From Flavobacterium geliluteum (lineage in GTDB: Bacteria; Bacteroidota; Bacteroidia; Flavobacteriales; Flavobacteriaceae), in NCBI RefSeq assembly GCF_017948595.1, contig NZ_JAGFBV010000020.1, positions 1 to 64,000 of the forward strand: a DNA stretch of 64,000 nt, given 5' to 3'. The notes beneath the pieces were generated by a model. That model was not told the DNA's origin. It made no database searches and saw nothing but the letters and a program-made list of their open reading frames with translations. The position numbers were made by a program, and so were the translations under genes. The stretch's first letter is position 1; each line of letters begins with the position of its first letter. Positions 24,280 through 30,136 of this stretch are shown piece after piece.

Positions 24280-24819
24280 TTATTTCAAGACCGCATTGAG
24301 CTGAACATTGATTTTATTAGACACTTTGCTTTTGACTACCGAAGGTATAGCAATATTAAAATCGCTTGCATTTACGGAGAAATTAGACAACATATTGATT
24401 CCCGCGGACGATTTACTCATTTTTATTACCGTTTTGATCGCAACTGTTTTTCCGTGAAGTTCCAATTTTCCATTAACCGTAAAATCTTTTGGCGTCGCGG
24501 TTAGGCTGTTGCTATCAAAATTTTCTAACTTTCCTTTAAAAGTCGCTTTCGGATATTGGTCGCTTTCGATATAATTTTCGTTAAAATGCTCTTCCATCAG
24601 CGCTACCTTAAACCGAAATCCTTTTACTAAAGCCAAACTTGCTATTTCTCCCGTTGCAGGATTCAAAACTACAGTAACACTTTTGTTCGTCGCCTTTACT
24701 TCTTCAAAAGAAGGAACAGAAGCTTCAAAAGTGATAATTCCTGATTTACAAACCAGCTTTTCCTGAGCAATCGCCCAATTGGAGAATGCTAAAATGGCTA
24801 TTACGATGATTTTTTTCAT
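24280..24819 (-). CDS. YceI-family periplasmic lipid-binding protein (1)
   Basis: 179 residues: signal peptide (about 18 residues, ends NWAIAQ) and a YceI lipocalin-like barrel of alternating strands, with conserved TFKGKL and FTVNGKLELHGKTV. YceI proteins bind long isoprenoid chains such as polyprenyl quinones in the periplasm. A close paralogue lies 88 bp upstream. The pair likely arose by tandem duplication. Confidence 0.9.
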   Translation of the reverse strand: MKKIIVIAILAFSNWAIAQEKLVCKSGIITFEASVPSFEEVKATNKSVTVVLNPATGEIASLALVKGFRFKVALMEEHFNENYIESDQYPKATFKGKLENFDSNSLTATPKDFTVNGKLELHGKTVAIKTVIKMSKSSAGINMLSNFSVNASDFNIAIPSVVKSKVSNKINVQLNAVLK

Positions 24820-24907: not shown

Positions 24908-25447
24908 TTATTTTAAAACAGCAATAATCTGAATATTGACTTTATTGTCTAATTTATACTTAATAAGTGCCGGAATTGGTATGCCATAATCATCTGCGTT
25001 GACAGAGAAATCGGTTAAAATAGTAATTCGAGGACCTGATTTGGTAATTTTTGCATTTACAATAACGTCTTTGGTTTTGCCATGAAGTTCTAATTTTCCT
25101 TTGATGATAAAATCTTTATAACCTTCTGTCAGACTGTTGGCGTCAAAATCTTGTATTTGTCCTCTAAACACTGCTTTTGGATAAGTATTCGTTTCCATAT
25201 AATTTTCATTAAAATGTTCTTCCATCAAAGCGATTTCAAAACGAAAACCTTTCATCATGGCCAAACTTGCAATTTCTCCTGTTCTTCTATTCAGAACAAA
25301 AGTGACATTAGTATTGGTTCCCTTAACGGGCTGAAAAGAAGGCACAGATGCTTCAACCGATATTGTTGCTGTTTTGGTGATCAGTTTCTCTTGCGAAAAA
25401 ACGATCAGAGACACCAATAACATGGTGATAAGTAATATTTTTTTCAT
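24908..25447 (-). CDS. YceI-family periplasmic lipid-binding protein (2)
   Basis: 179 residues with a signal peptide (ends LIVFSQE) and a full YceI domain; the arrangement and length match the neighbour at 24280-24819 (for example GFRFEIALMEEHFNENY against GFRFKVALMEEHFNENY). It starts 19 bp after the haem lipoprotein stop codon, so both probably come from the ECF-like promoter at 25907-25930. Confidence 0.9.
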   Translation of the reverse strand: MKKILLITMLLVSLIVFSQEKLITKTATISVEASVPSFQPVKGTNTNVTFVLNRRTGEIASLAMMKGFRFEIALMEEHFNENYMETNTYPKAVFRGQIQDFDANSLTEGYKDFIIKGKLELHGKTKDVIVNAKITKSGPRITILTDFSVNADDYGIPIPALIKYKLDNKVNIQIIAVLK

Positions 25448-25466: not shown

Positions 25467-25832
25467 TTATTCTAACAATCCGTCCTGCTGCCATTTTAAG
25501 ATGATGTCGATTGTGGTCTGAGGCAATCTTGGCCCTCCTTGTGGCATCAATAAACTGTTGCCGTTTTCTAATGAAATTCTGTTTAACAACCCACGGTTTT
25601 GAACAGCACTTTTTACTTGATCGTACGTAACTAAAGACATTGGAGCTCCATTTCTTGGCGTTGCCGCGTGGCAGGAAATACAATTATTGTCGATAATAGA
25701 TTTTACATTTTGATTGTAGGTTACTGCTCCAGAAATTGGAGTGTCTTCCATCAAAGTATCAGGGTTGTCATCACTGCATCCTATTAATAAAGTAGCGAAT
25801 GCCAAAACAGAGAAAAGGTTTTTCGGTTTCAT
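25467..25832 (-). CDS. c-type haem lipoprotein
   Basis: 121 residues. Lipoprotein signal with LLIGC (Cys19), acidic linker, and a single haem-attachment motif CISCH (Cys51, Cys54, His55). The C-terminal PRLPQTTIDIILKWQQDG resembles the end of cytochrome c-like domains of planctomycete/PSCyt type, and MPQGG offers a Met ligand. Anchored in the envelope, it could pass electrons; the partner is unknown. First gene of a unit with yceI (2). Confidence 0.85.
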   Translation of the reverse strand: MKPKNLFSVLAFATLLIGCSDDNPDTLMEDTPISGAVTYNQNVKSIIDNNCISCHAATPRNGAPMSLVTYDQVKSAVQNRGLLNRISLENGNSLLMPQGGPRLPQTTIDIILKWQQDGLLE

Positions 25833-25906
25833 AATAATTGATTTTTAATTTAAAAAAAAGTTTTCACAACTCTGCAGAATTATAAAAACAACTCACTGAT
25901 TTCATA

Positions 25907-25930
25907 TACGGTATAATGTTCATTCTAGTT
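25907..25930 (-). promoter_or_regulatory. ECF-sigma-like promoter of the haem lipoprotein/yceI unit
   Basis: On the minus strand AACT (25927-25930) preceded by A-rich sequence, 16 bp, CGTA (25907-25910) continuing TATG. One mismatch to the AACC-N16-CGTA pattern found three more times in this region. The start codon is about 75 bp downstream. Confidence 0.5.
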
Positions 25931-25959
25931 TTTTAAGTGAAGCTTTCTTTTGCGGGCGA

Positions 25960-25983
25960 AACCAATCTTACCGTTTTACCGTA
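25960..25983 (+). promoter_or_regulatory. ECF-sigma-like promoter of the OB-fold/DUF5777 unit
   Basis: GCGAAACC (AACC 25960-25963), 16 bp, CGTAGATA (CGTA 25980-25983). It is divergent from the 25907-25930 element; the two -35 boxes are 29 bp apart. Start codon 30 bp downstream of the -10. Confidence 0.6.
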
Positions 25984-26013
25984 GATAAGAAAACACCTCT
26001 AAAAATCGATCTC

Positions 26014-26403
26014 ATGAGAAAAAAGATATTCATCGGAACTTTAATTGTATTGGCCACAGCTACTGCAGTTTATTTTTATACCTATCAAGACCACAGAAAC
26101 ATTAGCAGCGAAAAGGCTTCTTATGTAATGAGCATTTCTGACTTAGAACAGGAGTTTGCTAAAAACGACAGTCTTGCATTACTGAAATATCAAGATAAGA
26201 CTATTGAATTGACGGCACAGGTAACAGCAGTTGAAAGCGAGGACAAAGCACTTATTCTAGAACAAAAACTCTTTGCAACTTTTAATGACAGTGTGCCTGA
26301 AAACATTGTTTCTGGCGAAAAAATCAACATCAAAGGACGATTTCTTGGCTATGATGAATTACTAGACGAATTTAAAATGGACCAGAGCTCCATTATTGAA
26401 TAA
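26014..26403 (+). CDS. membrane-anchored OB-fold (tRNA_anti-like) protein
   Basis: 129 residues. One N-terminal membrane helix (residues 5-23), then a small beta-rich domain (about 55-120: KTIELTAQVTAVESEDKALILEQKLFATF) of the tRNA_anti-like OB type. These domains in Bacteroidota envelope proteins have no defined role. Followed by the DUF5777 gene after 38 bp in the same direction. Confidence 0.75.
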   Translation: MRKKIFIGTLIVLATATAVYFYTYQDHRNISSEKASYVMSISDLEQEFAKNDSLALLKYQDKTIELTAQVTAVESEDKALILEQKLFATFNDSVPENIVSGEKINIKGRFLGYDELLDEFKMDQSSIIE

Positions 26404-26441
26404 TTAAAAAAACAATTTCTAACAATCCAAAATTATATTTT

Positions 26442-27281
26442 ATGAAAAAGCTTATACTCTTATTTTTTTTATTCCCTTTGGCATCATTTGCACAAAATGA
26501 TCTTCTGGACGGAATGGATACTGCTACTCGCAACGAAAAAGTAACATCTGCCTTTAAGGGCTTAAAAATTGTCAATTTAGAATCCACTAAACTTGCTGCA
26601 AAAGGTGATTTGTATTTTATTGTAGCACATAGATTTGGTTCTGTAAAAGATGGTTTTGAAGGATTCTTTGGTTTGGATAATGCCAACACGCAACTAAAAT
26701 TTGTTTACGGATTGACACAATGGCTTACCATTAGTGCTGCCCGTAGCGAATTGGCTTATGATTTTTCTACCAAGTACACGTTGCTTAATCAGACTACTAA
26801 TGGTTTTCCAGTAACCGTTGCCGGTTTTACAAGTTTGGCGATCAACAATACGCTGAAAGAAAGTCTTTACCCGAAACTAACTTTTGACAATCGTTTTACT
26901 TATGTAGGTCAATTATTGATTTCCAGAAAATTCTCCGAAAAACTATCTTTAGAAGTAGCGCCAACGATGTTTCATGAAAACTTTGTAGATAACGTGCAGC
27001 AAGATAATACGCAATATGCGGTTGGGCTTGGAGGTCGTTACAAATTATCTAAACGTTGGTCACTAAATGTTGATTATGCTGCACATTTAAACAGAGCATC
27101 AAATTCTATCTACAAAAATCCACTCTCTGTAGGTTTTGATTTAGAAACTGGTGGGCATGTTTTTCAGATGCATTTTACTAGTTCTCAAGGAATTCACGAA
27201 GCAGGATATCTTGCTCAAACCACAGGAGACTGGACAAAAGGAGATGTGTTTTTTGGGTTTAACCTTCTTAGGGTTTTCTAA
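26442..27281 (+). CDS. DUF5777-family outer-membrane beta-barrel protein
   Basis: 279 residues with a signal peptide (ends ASFAQ, about residue 18). The rest alternates short amphipathic strands, for example LYFIVAHRFGSV, LKFVYGLTQWLTISAARSELAY and WSLNVDYAAHLN, typical of an outer-membrane barrel, and ends in GFNLLRVF with a terminal Phe. Members of this family are often beside YceI and cytochrome genes, as here. Function unknown. Confidence 0.82.
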   Translation: MKKLILLFFLFPLASFAQNDLLDGMDTATRNEKVTSAFKGLKIVNLESTKLAAKGDLYFIVAHRFGSVKDGFEGFFGLDNANTQLKFVYGLTQWLTISAARSELAYDFSTKYTLLNQTTNGFPVTVAGFTSLAINNTLKESLYPKLTFDNRFTYVGQLLISRKFSEKLSLEVAPTMFHENFVDNVQQDNTQYAVGLGGRYKLSKRWSLNVDYAAHLNRASNSIYKNPLSVGFDLETGGHVFQMHFTSSQGIHEAGYLAQTTGDWTKGDVFFGFNLLRVF

Positions 27282-27364
27282 AAATTTTAGCTTTTTAATG
27301 CCCTATTCGACAGTTTTTGGTATTTAAAACAATTCTAAATTAAACATCTTAACAGTATTCGCAA

Positions 27365-27388
27365 AACCAGATAGGAAAAACGCTCGTA
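27365..27388 (+). promoter_or_regulatory. ECF-sigma-like promoter of the trHb-like lipoprotein unit
   Basis: GCAAAACC (AACC 27365-27368), 16 bp, CGTAGATA (CGTA 27385-27388), followed 25 bp later by the start codon. Same spacing and nearly the same boxes as at 25960-25983. Confidence 0.6.
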
Positions 27389-27413
27389 GATACTTTTCAC
27401 AACCTTAAAACTT

Positions 27414-27848
27414 ATGAAAATGAATAAAACAATCAAAAAAGGACTACTTATCCTGGGAGGAACCGCCTTGCTGTTTATCGCTATTTTGCTTTTTCACATT
27501 ATAACAGCCAAACCAGCGGTATACGAGAGTCCGAACTTACAAGTGAGTCGTATTGATTTTGAAAACAATATCGATTCGCTGCAAGCTAAACAAATTAGCG
27601 CTGACTTGAGATCAATCAAAGGCCTGACCTCTGATTCTATTATTATTAAAAGAAATGTTGTGGTGTATTTCCATAACAACAAAATCACTAATTCAGAGAA
27701 AGTATTCAACGAATTAATGAGTAAAAGACCTTACGAAGCCAAACGATATATTTTACCAGCCAATCTAGCCAGCAAAGAAGTTTGTCCAGTAGATCAGAAT
27801 AGTTTTAGTTATAAAATGTCTAAATCTATAAATCAATTTTTTAATTAA
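27414..27848 (+). CDS. hypothetical membrane-anchored protein
   Basis: 144 residues: membrane helix at about 10-30, then a small soluble domain (45-115). Its strand-helix-strand-strand-helix-strand look (IDFENNIDSLQAKQISADLRSI, SIIIKRNVVVYFHNN, SEKVFNELM) resembles a ferredoxin-like heavy-metal-associated fold but without CxxC. One Cys near the C-terminus (KEVCPVD). First gene of a unit with the truncated-haemoglobin-like lipoprotein, 19 bp apart. Confidence 0.65.
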   Translation: MKMNKTIKKGLLILGGTALLFIAILLFHIITAKPAVYESPNLQVSRIDFENNIDSLQAKQISADLRSIKGLTSDSIIIKRNVVVYFHNNKITNSEKVFNELMSKRPYEAKRYILPANLASKEVCPVDQNSFSYKMSKSINQFFN

Positions 27849-27867
27849 TCCTTAAATACTATTTATT

Positions 27868-28461
27868 ATGAGAAATTTTTCAAGAATTACACTAAGTGTA
27901 TTATTAGTTTCGTCAGCAGCATTTACTTCTTGCAGCAATGACGATGATTCAACGCCAACAGAGCCAGTAAAAGCATCAATTTACACACGTTTAGGCGGAA
28001 CAACGATGGTTGCAGATCCTGATAATTCAGGACAAATGATTGAGCAAGGACGTTTGTCATTTCGTAAAGTAGTAAACTCTACAATCGGACTTATTGTTGC
28101 TGATGTTCAAGCAAATGCTGCAGGAAATTTACAAGCACATTTTGCTCCAGTTTTGGCAGAGACGGGAAATACTCAGGCTACCAGCATTGCAAAATTGTCT
28201 GATAATCTAACCGATTTCTTCTCTTTTAATACAGGAGGAACAAATGCAGTAAACACGTACTCAGGTTTAAACATGGTAGCTGCGCATGATCCAGCAACAA
28301 ATCCACGTATGGGAACAAAATCGAACACTGCAGATTATACAAAATTCGTAGGATATGTAGGAGCAGCAGCAAATGCTAACGGAGTAGCTTCAAACACAGA
28401 ATTATACACTGATATTGTGGCTGTTCTAGAATCATTGAGAACTCCTATCGTTCAAAAATAA
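27868..28461 (+). CDS. lipoprotein related to group I truncated haemoglobin
   Basis: 197 residues. Lipoprotein signal with TSC (Cys22) and an acidic SNDDDS linker typical of surface or outer-membrane lipoproteins. The rest follows truncated-haemoglobin marks: IYTRLGG (38-44), then LTDFF...NTGGTNAVNTYSGLNMVAAH (114-140), matching the FLxxxTGGxxxYxGxxMxxAH helix E/F pattern with proximal His140. The C-terminus GVASNTELYTDIVAVLESLR fits helix H. About 40 residues longer than typical trHb because of inserts around 50-105. A haem- or gas-binding role outside the cytoplasm is inferred. Confidence 0.6.
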   Translation: MRNFSRITLSVLLVSSAAFTSCSNDDDSTPTEPVKASIYTRLGGTTMVADPDNSGQMIEQGRLSFRKVVNSTIGLIVADVQANAAGNLQAHFAPVLAETGNTQATSIAKLSDNLTDFFSFNTGGTNAVNTYSGLNMVAAHDPATNPRMGTKSNTADYTKFVGYVGAAANANGVASNTELYTDIVAVLESLRTPIVQK

Positions 28462-28476
28462 TTCTTTTCCAAAGTC

Positions 28477-28507
28477 AAAAACGCTACCTTCTACAGGTAG
28501 CGTTTTT
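28477..28507 (+). terminator. terminator after the trHb-like gene
   Basis: 13-bp stem (28477-28489 with 28495-28507, AAAAACGCTACCT) around a 5-nt loop with a terminal T-run, 16 bp past the stop codon. Confidence 0.85.
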
Positions 28508-28642
28508 ATTTAATACGCAATTTATAGCGTTAACTCTTTCAAAAGCAAGTCAATAATATTGCTGCTCATTAAATCTGAAGTATCGTTATTAAAGTTTTTA
28601 AAAAAAACGATCAAAAAAAGTATTTTAATACCACTTTGAAAG
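28508..28642. other. intergenic stretch before hemA, no gene seen
   Basis: The gap 28462-28879 is about 418 bp. Besides the terminator, the ECF-like promoter (28643-28666) and the hemA-proximal promoter (28821-28853), I see no gene or RNA fold. An 11-codon ORF starting near 28712 has no support. Confidence 0.5.
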
Positions 28643-28666
28643 AACCCTAAGCGATATTTTTTCGTA
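28643..28666 (+). promoter_or_regulatory. ECF-sigma-like promoter upstream of hemA
   Basis: TGAAAGAACC (AACC 28643-28646), 16 bp, CGTACATA (CGTA 28663-28666). Same pattern as the three promoters of the envelope redox cluster. It would give a leader of about 205 nt before hemA. Confidence 0.5.
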
Positions 28667-28820
28667 CATACTATAGAAGTCAGTGCGCAACCTTATTTAG
28701 AACAAATCTATATAAATGGTCAAAAAACACCTGATTTCTCTATATTTCTAATAAAAACCGTTTTTGTAATTACGATTTTGAATCAATTTTTCTTGAAGCG
28801 ATACAAAAAGAACTTACAGC

Positions 28821-28853
28821 GTTGTTTTTATAAAATAGTTAATAATAATTTTG
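28821..28853 (+). promoter_or_regulatory. hemA-proximal housekeeping promoter
   Basis: GTTG (28821-28824), 21 bp, TAATTTTG (28846-28853), the latter an exact -7 match. It lies inside the upstream in-frame extension of hemA, which supports the start at 28880. Confidence 0.55.
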
Positions 28854-28879
28854 TTGAACTTTTTAAGGAAAGTATAATT

Positions 28880-30136
28880 ATGGAAAACTTTAACATGTCC
28901 AGAAACAGCACTTTTTACGCTTTAGGTTTAAGTTACAAAAAAGCAGATGCAACAATAAGAGGAAAATTTAGCCTGGATGCCAAAGCTCAATCTATCTTAT
29001 TAATGCAGGCCGAAGCCGAAGGAATAGAGTCGCTGATCGTTACATCAACTTGCAATAGAACCGAAATTTATGGTTTTGCTAATCATCCCTATGAATTAAT
29101 CAAATTGCTTTGTGAAAACAGTAACGGATCTGTTGAAGAATTTCAGGAAGTAGCTTATATTTATAAAAATCAGGAAGCGATCAATCACATGTTTCGTGTA
29201 GGAACAGGATTAGACAGCCAAATTTTAGGTGATTTTGAAATTATAAGTCAAATAAAAAATGCTTTCAACCAAAGTAAATCCAATGGTTTAATAAATACTT
29301 TCATGGAGCGTTTGGTAAACTCTGTGATTCAGGCCAGCAAAAAAATCAAAACAGACACGGAGATTTCTTCTGGTGCGACTTCAGTTTCTTTTGCTTCTGT
29401 TCAATACATCATCAAAAATGTAGAAGATATTGCCAACAAAAATATTTTACTTTTCGGAACGGGAAAAATTGGTAGAAATACTTGTGAAAATCTTGTAAAA
29501 CATACCAAACACGAACAAATCATCCTGATCAACAGAACCAAAGACAAAGCCGAAAAATTGGCCGAAAAACTGGATTTAGTTGTAAAAGATTATTCTGATC
29601 TGGAAGTAGAAATACAAAAAGCAGATGTTTTGGTAGTGGCCACTGGTGCTCAAAACCCAACGGTTGACAAAGCCATCTTAAATCTTAAAAAGCCTTTGCT
29701 TATTTTAGATTTATCGATTCCTAAAAACGTACATGAAAATGTTACCGAAATAAAAGGCGTAACGCTAATTCACATGGATTACTTGTCGCAACTAACCGAT
29801 GAAACTTTAGAAAAAAGAAAAACACACATTCCTGCTGCCGAAGTTATTATCGAAGAAATAAAAGACGAATTCAACACCTGGACAAAAGGCAGAAAATTTG
29901 CACCAACTATTAATGCTTTGAAAGCCAAACTTAACGACATCAAAAACTCGGAATTGGATTTTCAAAGTAGAAAAATAGCTGATTTTAATGAAAAACAAGC
30001 CGAAATTATCAGCAACAGAATTATTCATAAAATTACCACTCATTTTGCAAATCACCTCAAAGAAGAAAACACGATGGTAGATGAATGCATCGAAATGATA
30101 GAAAAAATATTTAAAATTGAAGCAGTAGTCAAGTAA
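28880..30136 (+). CDS. hemA: glutamyl-tRNA reductase
   Basis: First enzyme of tetrapyrrole synthesis: reduces Glu-tRNA(Glu) to glutamate-1-semialdehyde with NADPH. 418 residues. The catalytic Cys58 lies in TSTCNRTEIYG, the Rossmann motif in LFGTGKIGRNTCENL, and the C-terminal dimerisation helices follow from about residue 320. An upstream ATG at 28778 would add 34 unconserved, basic residues and cover the -7 element; ATG 28880 is preferred. Heads the hemA-C-D-E run. Confidence 0.95.
   Translation: MENFNMSRNSTFYALGLSYKKADATIRGKFSLDAKAQSILLMQAEAEGIESLIVTSTCNRTEIYGFANHPYELIKLLCENSNGSVEEFQEVAYIYKNQEAINHMFRVGTGLDSQILGDFEIISQIKNAFNQSKSNGLINTFMERLVNSVIQASKKIKTDTEISSGATSVSFASVQYIIKNVEDIANKNILLFGTGKIGRNTCENLVKHTKHEQIILINRTKDKAEKLAEKLDLVVKDYSDLEVEIQKADVLVVATGAQNPTVDKAILNLKKPLLILDLSIPKNVHENVTEIKGVTLIHMDYLSQLTDETLEKRKTHIPAAEVIIEEIKDEFNTWTKGRKFAPTINALKAKLNDIKNSELDFQSRKIADFNEKQAEIISNRIIHKITTHFANHLKEENTMVDECIEMIEKIFKIEAVVK

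Follow-up and report, generated by a model that had tools for sequence, protein, structure and literature searches.

Three promoter-like elements of the form AAAWCY-N16-CGTANATR were located in a 64,000-nt stretch of Flavobacterium geliluteum DNA (NZ_JAGFBV010000020.1, GCF_017948595.1; hereafter the window), and they are very probably promoters read by one SigK-like extracytoplasmic function (ECF) sigma factor, which would control a regulon and be subject to feedback through a further promoter inside its own gene. What is reported below on the sites, on how they are conserved and spaced, on gene linkage and on codon bias was obtained by computation on the DNA. The elements, proposed as -35 and -10 elements, were found at 25903-25932 on the minus strand (AAAACT-N16-CGTATATG), at 25958-25987 on the plus strand (GAAACC-N16-CGTAGATA) and at 27363-27392 on the plus strand (AAAACC-N16-CGTAGATA), and they would serve a cytochrome c gene and probably also the two YceI genes behind it, an OB-fold gene and probably also a DUF5777 gene, and a gene here named lipo144 and probably also a trHb-like gene, respectively. 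A look-alike before hemA (28641-28670, plus strand) was judged to lie outside the set. An ECF regulon with promoter sequence, sigma factor and target list is thereby proposed in a phylum with unusual promoters; one regulator would tie together envelope genes of unknown function (DUF5777, lipo144, DUF4331 and fasciclin), and a promoter hidden in the sigma gene would be a compact feedback design.

Conservation of the proposed promoters

For the named-genome scan, the best 80 of 130 relatives of the trHb-like protein were kept, from genomes titled as Flavobacterium, its family or its class and overlapping in part with the 101-genome set described below. The pattern AA[AT]C[CT]-N16-CGTA was counted upstream of each gene, leaving out identical upstreams, upstreams shorter than 100 nt, the yceI2 query, matches starting beyond the first 25 residues and fasciclin matches of less than 65% identity. 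It was present in all 39 distinct upstreams of the cytochrome c gene, all 36 of the OB-fold gene, 68 of 70 of lipo144 and all 9 of the fasciclin gene; of the two controls, the trHb-like gene, which is the second gene of its unit, had it in 1 of 66 upstreams, and hemA in 0 of 65. Conservation of the boxes in orthologous loci, which had been set beforehand as a test, holds for the three promoters and puts these sites far beyond chance, which is not so for the hemA site.

Of 101 genus genomes, among them that of the window, 75 gave a match to the DUF5777 protein, and longer stretches were taken for 20 of these. The whole-cluster set consisted of 14 loci running from the cytochrome c gene through hemA, the window included. 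Each of three upstream elements was found in 14/14 of them, with a steady distance to the start codon and a drifting spacer: AAA[AT]CT-N16-CGTA for the cytochrome c gene, A[AT]CC-N16-CGTA for the OB-fold gene and AAA[AT]CC-N16-CGTA for lipo144. The strict motif occurred 49 times at a spacing of 16 in 36 DUF5777 loci, and not once at spacings of 12-15 or 17-20.

A weight matrix was built from 125 sites of the named-genome scan, all of which contain CGTA as imposed by the search pattern itself. The promoters of the cytochrome c gene (21.8), lipo144 (19.7) and the OB-fold gene (16.0) ranked first, second and third in the window, respectively, and the next-best position scored 5.0. The -35 box, given as AACC in the initial annotation, is better written AAAWCY according to the matrix, and the fuller motif AAAWCY-N16-CGTANATR was enriched in 10 genomes of the same genus (91 matches vs 44 for the reversed pattern). 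The boxes stand at a median of 23-60 nt before the start codon, depending on the gene, and the primary-sigma box TAnnTTTG was not found upstream of the cytochrome c gene, the OB-fold gene or lipo144. The initial annotation had placed AACC-N16-CGTA at 25960-25983, 27365-27388 and 28643-28666 on the plus strand and AACT-N16-CGTA at 25907-25930 on the minus strand, all of which were matched letter for letter, and had taken all four as ECF-sigma promoters; conservation and weight matrix bear this out for the cytochrome c/YceI, OB-fold/DUF5777 and lipo144/trHb-like units, not for hemA.

The candidate sigma factor and its anti-sigma

Matches to sigma region 4 were found at 17 loci of the genome. Strict sites were found at one of these, the SigK-like locus at G000:C30, which carries two; another sigma-domain locus (L119) had a single relaxed match. 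Because only its locus among the 17 has strict sites, the SigK-like ECF factor is the most likely sigma. The initial annotation remarked that the window has no ECF sigma gene; the likely one, with the RskA-type anti-sigma, lies outside it at G000:C30. The sigma matched PF04542 (63.5 bits) and PF04545 (31.7 bits), both over the cut-offs, and PF08281 at 25.2 bits, just under the cut-off of 25.7. The anti-sigma gene lies directly downstream, the two reading frames overlapping by one base, and its product matched PF10099 (RskA_C) at 67.3 bits (cut-off 29.4). SigK (4nqw) was the first structural match of the sigma (2.7e-16) and SigW the second (8.9e-15). Two cysteines typical of SigK (133 and 183) do not line up in the sigma (alignment with 4nqw, by eye); these occur in 94% of ECF18 and 56% of ECF19 (PMC7509140) and are not universal in SigK.

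An RskA match was found in 72 of the 101 genus genomes, including the distant matches of G018 and G022 (30-33% identity). In G001, also among the 72, rskA is a fragment with stops and the best fasciclin match likewise carries a stop in frame, as though regulator and target had decayed together. At 7 of 74 loci, a site stands ahead of sigK and is directed towards it. As separate observations, a second sigK-rskA copy adjoins the hemA end of the cluster in G042:C1, G053:C7 and G049:C7, its rskA sharing 76-79% identity with the rskA of the window's genome, and a Flavo-1 RNA (RF01705, 58.4 bits) lies near the sigK locus (L128, 6472-6550).

A probable promoter inside the sigK coding sequence

AAAACC-N16-CGTA, oriented towards rskA, was found within the coding sequence of sigK, in the part that separates regions 2 and 4. 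The relaxed intragenic site was present in 70 of 71 distinct sigK genes of the genus (synonymous-shuffle mean 5.1, maximum 10), in 28 of 29 from other genera of the family (mean 1.2, maximum 4) and in 21 of 27 across the class (mean 1.0, maximum 4). The class set consisted of 27 loci outside the genus, of 30 taken, with an RskA match in 42 of 149 genomes there. All 21 of its intragenic sites are in the same frame, 20 of them at nucleotides 275-281 and one at 248; a spacing of 16 was met 31 times at the class loci, and no other spacing in the range 12-20 was met more than 3 times. The position of the promoter is stable over loci of 31-60% G+C, and the same boxes are found in class members that have other amino acids there.

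The codons AAC, TTC and GTA were used at the intragenic boxes of the genus in 70/70 genes each, vs 43%, 21% and 40%, respectively, elsewhere in the same genes. The sequences are related, so that P values are not taken literally, and the site was placed by a protein pattern requiring F and V or I, by which the residues are partly given; one of the 71 genes (L274) falls outside this pattern. The element lies some 210-250 nt short of the end of sigK and points at the anti-sigma gene, which suggests that active sigma boosts its own anti-sigma as a built-in negative feedback. The sigK-like gene of Bacteroidia is likely to carry a double code, in which the linker codons spell the sigma's own promoter and extra inhibitor would be made at each activation without extra sigma; the promoter letters would in turn constrain the linker amino acids.

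Targets and gene neighbourhoods elsewhere

Outside the cluster, the target genes that were read include those of a fasciclin protein (PF02469), MsrB, a chalcone-isomerase-like protein and DUF3050; an MsrA gene comes after MsrB (by eye). A fasciclin match at E 1e-70 or better was found in 58 of the 72 genomes with RskA, G018 and G022 among them, and in 0 of the 29 without, and weaker fasciclin matches occur in both groups. The 65 loci of close matches that were read gave 62 distinct upstreams, and the promoter, with at most one mismatch, was found in 62/62 of them, 23-63 nt before the aligned start. In the stretch read, at least one strict site was found in 20 of 30 DUF5777 loci of genomes with sigK-rskA and in 0 of 5 from genomes without the pair; the locus of G001 has one.

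Of the 80 named loci (best 80 of 130), 14 have a sigK-rskA pair no more than 6 kb from the cluster. The gene that diverges from sigK behind the site is homologous to lipo144 in L268 (46% identity) and, by eye, in L259, L266 and L274; it is a DUF4331 gene in L252 and an MsrB gene in L292. In another family of the class (L382), the order is sigK-rskA-site-lipo144-trHb, the last two proteins being 25% and 50% identical to those of the window. In L378, the genes behind sigK and rskA are those of a small lipoprotein that gave no match in Pfam, of YceI and of a protein matching DUF5777; no site of the AAAWCY type was found at this locus. A perfect site at 7575-7605 of L128 (minus strand) lies between sigK and a glutathione peroxidase gene, and the same place is taken in many relatives by a short peptide, a DUF4331 gene or a lipo144 homologue. 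The peroxidase gene is doubted as a direct target because several hundred bases separate it from the site, and because a terminator-like hairpin stands there in the window's genome (by eye). Near-matches within long genes (L130, L134, L135, L137, L139 and L140) were taken as chance.

A promoter was also observed on the strand opposite rskA, about 130-480 nt past its end, in 12 of 29 loci of other genera (L331, L334, L336, L337, L339, L341, L342, L345, L349, L355, L357 and L358). No ATG-started frame of 30 codons was found near it in these 12 loci, most of which have in common a core like TTTTTTTGTTAGTT with a hairpin after it. This arrangement suggests a sigma-dependent small RNA; the 8 of the 12 candidates searched gave no match in Rfam.

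Proposed mechanism and alternative explanations

From these features we infer the following course of recognition, transcription, signalling and feedback. The SigK-like sigma from G000:C30 would be restrained by the RskA-type membrane anti-sigma, and its release signal may be oxidative damage in the envelope, a guess from the targets (methionine sulfoxide reductase, fasciclin and YceI). Freed sigma would bring RNA polymerase to the cytochrome c/YceI, OB-fold/DUF5777 and lipo144/trHb-like units, and to the fasciclin, MsrB and other genes outside the window. From the intragenic promoter, situated in the linker that joins regions 2 and 4, rskA would be transcribed, so that active sigma should raise its own inhibitor. 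The hemA gene would remain outside this regulon.

Several results weigh against this proposal. Exact AACC-N16-CGTA occurs 83 times in the whole genome, vs 165 times for the reversed pattern. In 7 stretches with the cytochrome c, OB-fold and DUF5777 genes only, the usual sites are missing or displaced (in one of them, L070, a site stands before DUF5777), and the stretch read lacks a strict site in 10 of the 30 DUF5777 loci of sigK genomes. The best NCBIfam match of the sigma, SigK NF007228, scored 108 bits at a cut-off of 226, because of which the factor is called SigK-like and not filed as SigK. In the genome of the window, sigK itself has no site within one mismatch directed towards it, and the intragenic site is absent from 6 of the 27 class-wide sigK genes. 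Other ECF factors could share the motif. Finally, most counts come from one genus and are therefore not independent events, and the two genome sets overlap; the class-wide sigK set is the best guard against kinship within one genus.

It is next to inconceivable that chance in A+T-rich DNA accounts for all four boxes. The genome-wide counts just given speak for chance, as do dinucleotide shuffles of the window, in which the three exact matches of AACC-N16-CGTA, the only ones in the whole 64 kb, compare with a mean of 1.26 and were reached in 12 of 100 shuffles. The initial annotation had put the expectation at about 0.02, far below the count; a naive value of 0.016 for the 788 intergenic bases of 25833-28879 comes close to this, but the count was made post hoc. 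The short motif was accordingly rejected as evidence by itself, and since its raw counts are not enriched, the question had to be settled by cross-species comparison. Chance fits the hemA site; for the other three it is already refuted by the named-genome upstream counts and the weight-matrix ranks. It is also highly improbable that the two boxes are the binding site of an ordinary transcription factor instead of promoter elements. The boxes form neither a repeat nor a palindrome, their spacing is fixed at 16, they stand at a median of 23-60 nt before the start codon by gene, TAnnTTTG was not found in the cytochrome c, OB-fold or lipo144 upstreams, and the sigma gene itself carries the element.

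It is somewhat less improbable, though still distinctly unlikely, that the promoters are real but belong to a different ECF sigma, or to several whose specificities overlap. The ECF-type motif of F. psychrophilum with its CGT -10 box, maybe common to several ECF factors (PMC9723704), would be in keeping with this, as would the 17 loci with a region-4 match. Against it stand the strict sites at one sigma locus of the 17 (with the single relaxed match at L119), the neighbourhoods and co-occurrence, which favour the SigK-like pair, and the difference between the SM6 genes listed in PMC9723704 and the targets found here. Retention of the intragenic sigK element by protein sequence or RNA structure, and not as a promoter, appears unlikely as well, if less so than the foregoing. 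Asn, Phe and Val are themselves well kept at the boxes in the genus, but the codon choice is fixed beyond the amino acids, synonymous shuffles lose the element, and the class members with other residues retain the boxes.

Comparison with known systems

The promoter of SigW of Bacillus subtilis has an AAC-type -35 box, a CGTA -10 box and a 16-base spacer, as do the promoters described here; in contrast, SigW came second to SigK as a structural match, and the anti-sigma here is of the RskA type. MPT70 and MPT83 are fasciclin-domain proteins. Both are SigK targets in Mycobacterium tuberculosis (PMC7509140), and the present system resembles SigK-RskA of that species in having fasciclin-domain genes as targets, here at the sequence level (62/62 upstreams), and an ECF sigma gene followed by that of an RskA-type membrane anti-sigma. 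It differs in that the sigma is under the cut-off of the SigK model and the two cysteines are not aligned (by eye), in that cytochrome c, YceI, DUF5777 and lipo144 are further targets, and in that the anti-sigma promoter is inside the sigma gene. The comparison was made on proteins and targets. SigK-RskA is treated for Actinobacteria and Yersinia in PMC7509140, the main text of which contains no mention of Bacteroidetes or Flavobacter.

With RpoE-ChrR of Rhodobacter are shared the Msr enzymes, which are up there under singlet oxygen, and a fasciclin protein among the targets (PMC7074977); the anti-sigma here differs in being RskA-type by Pfam, and the RpoE-ChrR pair of R. capsulatus is itself described as closer to SigK-RskA (PMC7074977). 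Transcription starts in F. psychrophilum are mapped in PMC9723704. Its SM6 is similar in being an ECF-type promoter with a CGT -10 box and in having a sigma/anti-sigma pair among its genes, and different in that the genes listed there for SM6 (type IX secretion, Band 7 and others) include none of the targets found here; no type IX secretion genes were recognised among the target genes read, no systematic search being made. ECFs associated with class I anti-sigmas (ASDI) make up 6% in Bacteroidetes vs 32% over all phyla (PMC7406223). In the open-access literature, no paper was found on an AAAWCY-N16-CGTANATR promoter or a SigK/RskA regulon in Bacteroidetes, nor on an anti-sigma promoter inside a sigma gene.

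Genes of the cluster

The cytochrome c gene (25467-25832, minus strand) encodes a small cytochrome c-like lipoprotein with a CISCH haem-binding stretch (by eye) and a PF13442 match of 22 bits, under the cut-off of 27. It is followed at 19 nt by a YceI gene (24908-25447, minus strand) and then by a second one (24280-24819, minus strand), both with PF04264. On the plus strand lie the OB-fold gene (26014-26403; PF12869, tRNA_anti-like), the DUF5777 beta-barrel gene (26442-27281; PF19089), lipo144 (27414-27848), of 144 amino acids and without match in Pfam and NCBIfam, and a lipoprotein gene (27868-28461) for which the label trHb-like was carried over from the initial annotation; its product had no Pfam match at 0.001 and no NCBIfam match at 0.01. 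The hemA gene for glutamyl-tRNA reductase (PF05201, PF01488 and PF00745) lies at 28880-30136 on the plus strand.

The hemA upstream region

Upstream of hemA, AA[AT]C[CT]-N16-CGTA was found in 0 of 65 further upstreams of the named loci. Both boxes were exact in only 5 of the 14 whole-cluster loci, and the spacer is frozen there too, so that conservation concerns a single block around AGCGATATTTTT, not a pair of boxes. The weight-matrix score of the look-alike was 2.0 (rank 8 in the window), which is background. A stretch TAATTTTG at 28846-28853 (plus strand), 34 nt before hemA, fits the -7 box of the primary sigma, the consensus TAnnTTTG being taken from PMC9723704; such a box was found before hemA only, among six upstream regions examined, and no matching -33 TTTG was found 17-23 nt from it. 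On these grounds hemA, which the initial annotation had placed in the regulon, was rejected as a member. A conserved near-palindrome, TTATTTAGAACAAATCTATATAAA, was also observed before hemA at 28693-28716 of the window, and it is kept in relatives with the hemA block. It resembles an iron-regulator (Fur) box.

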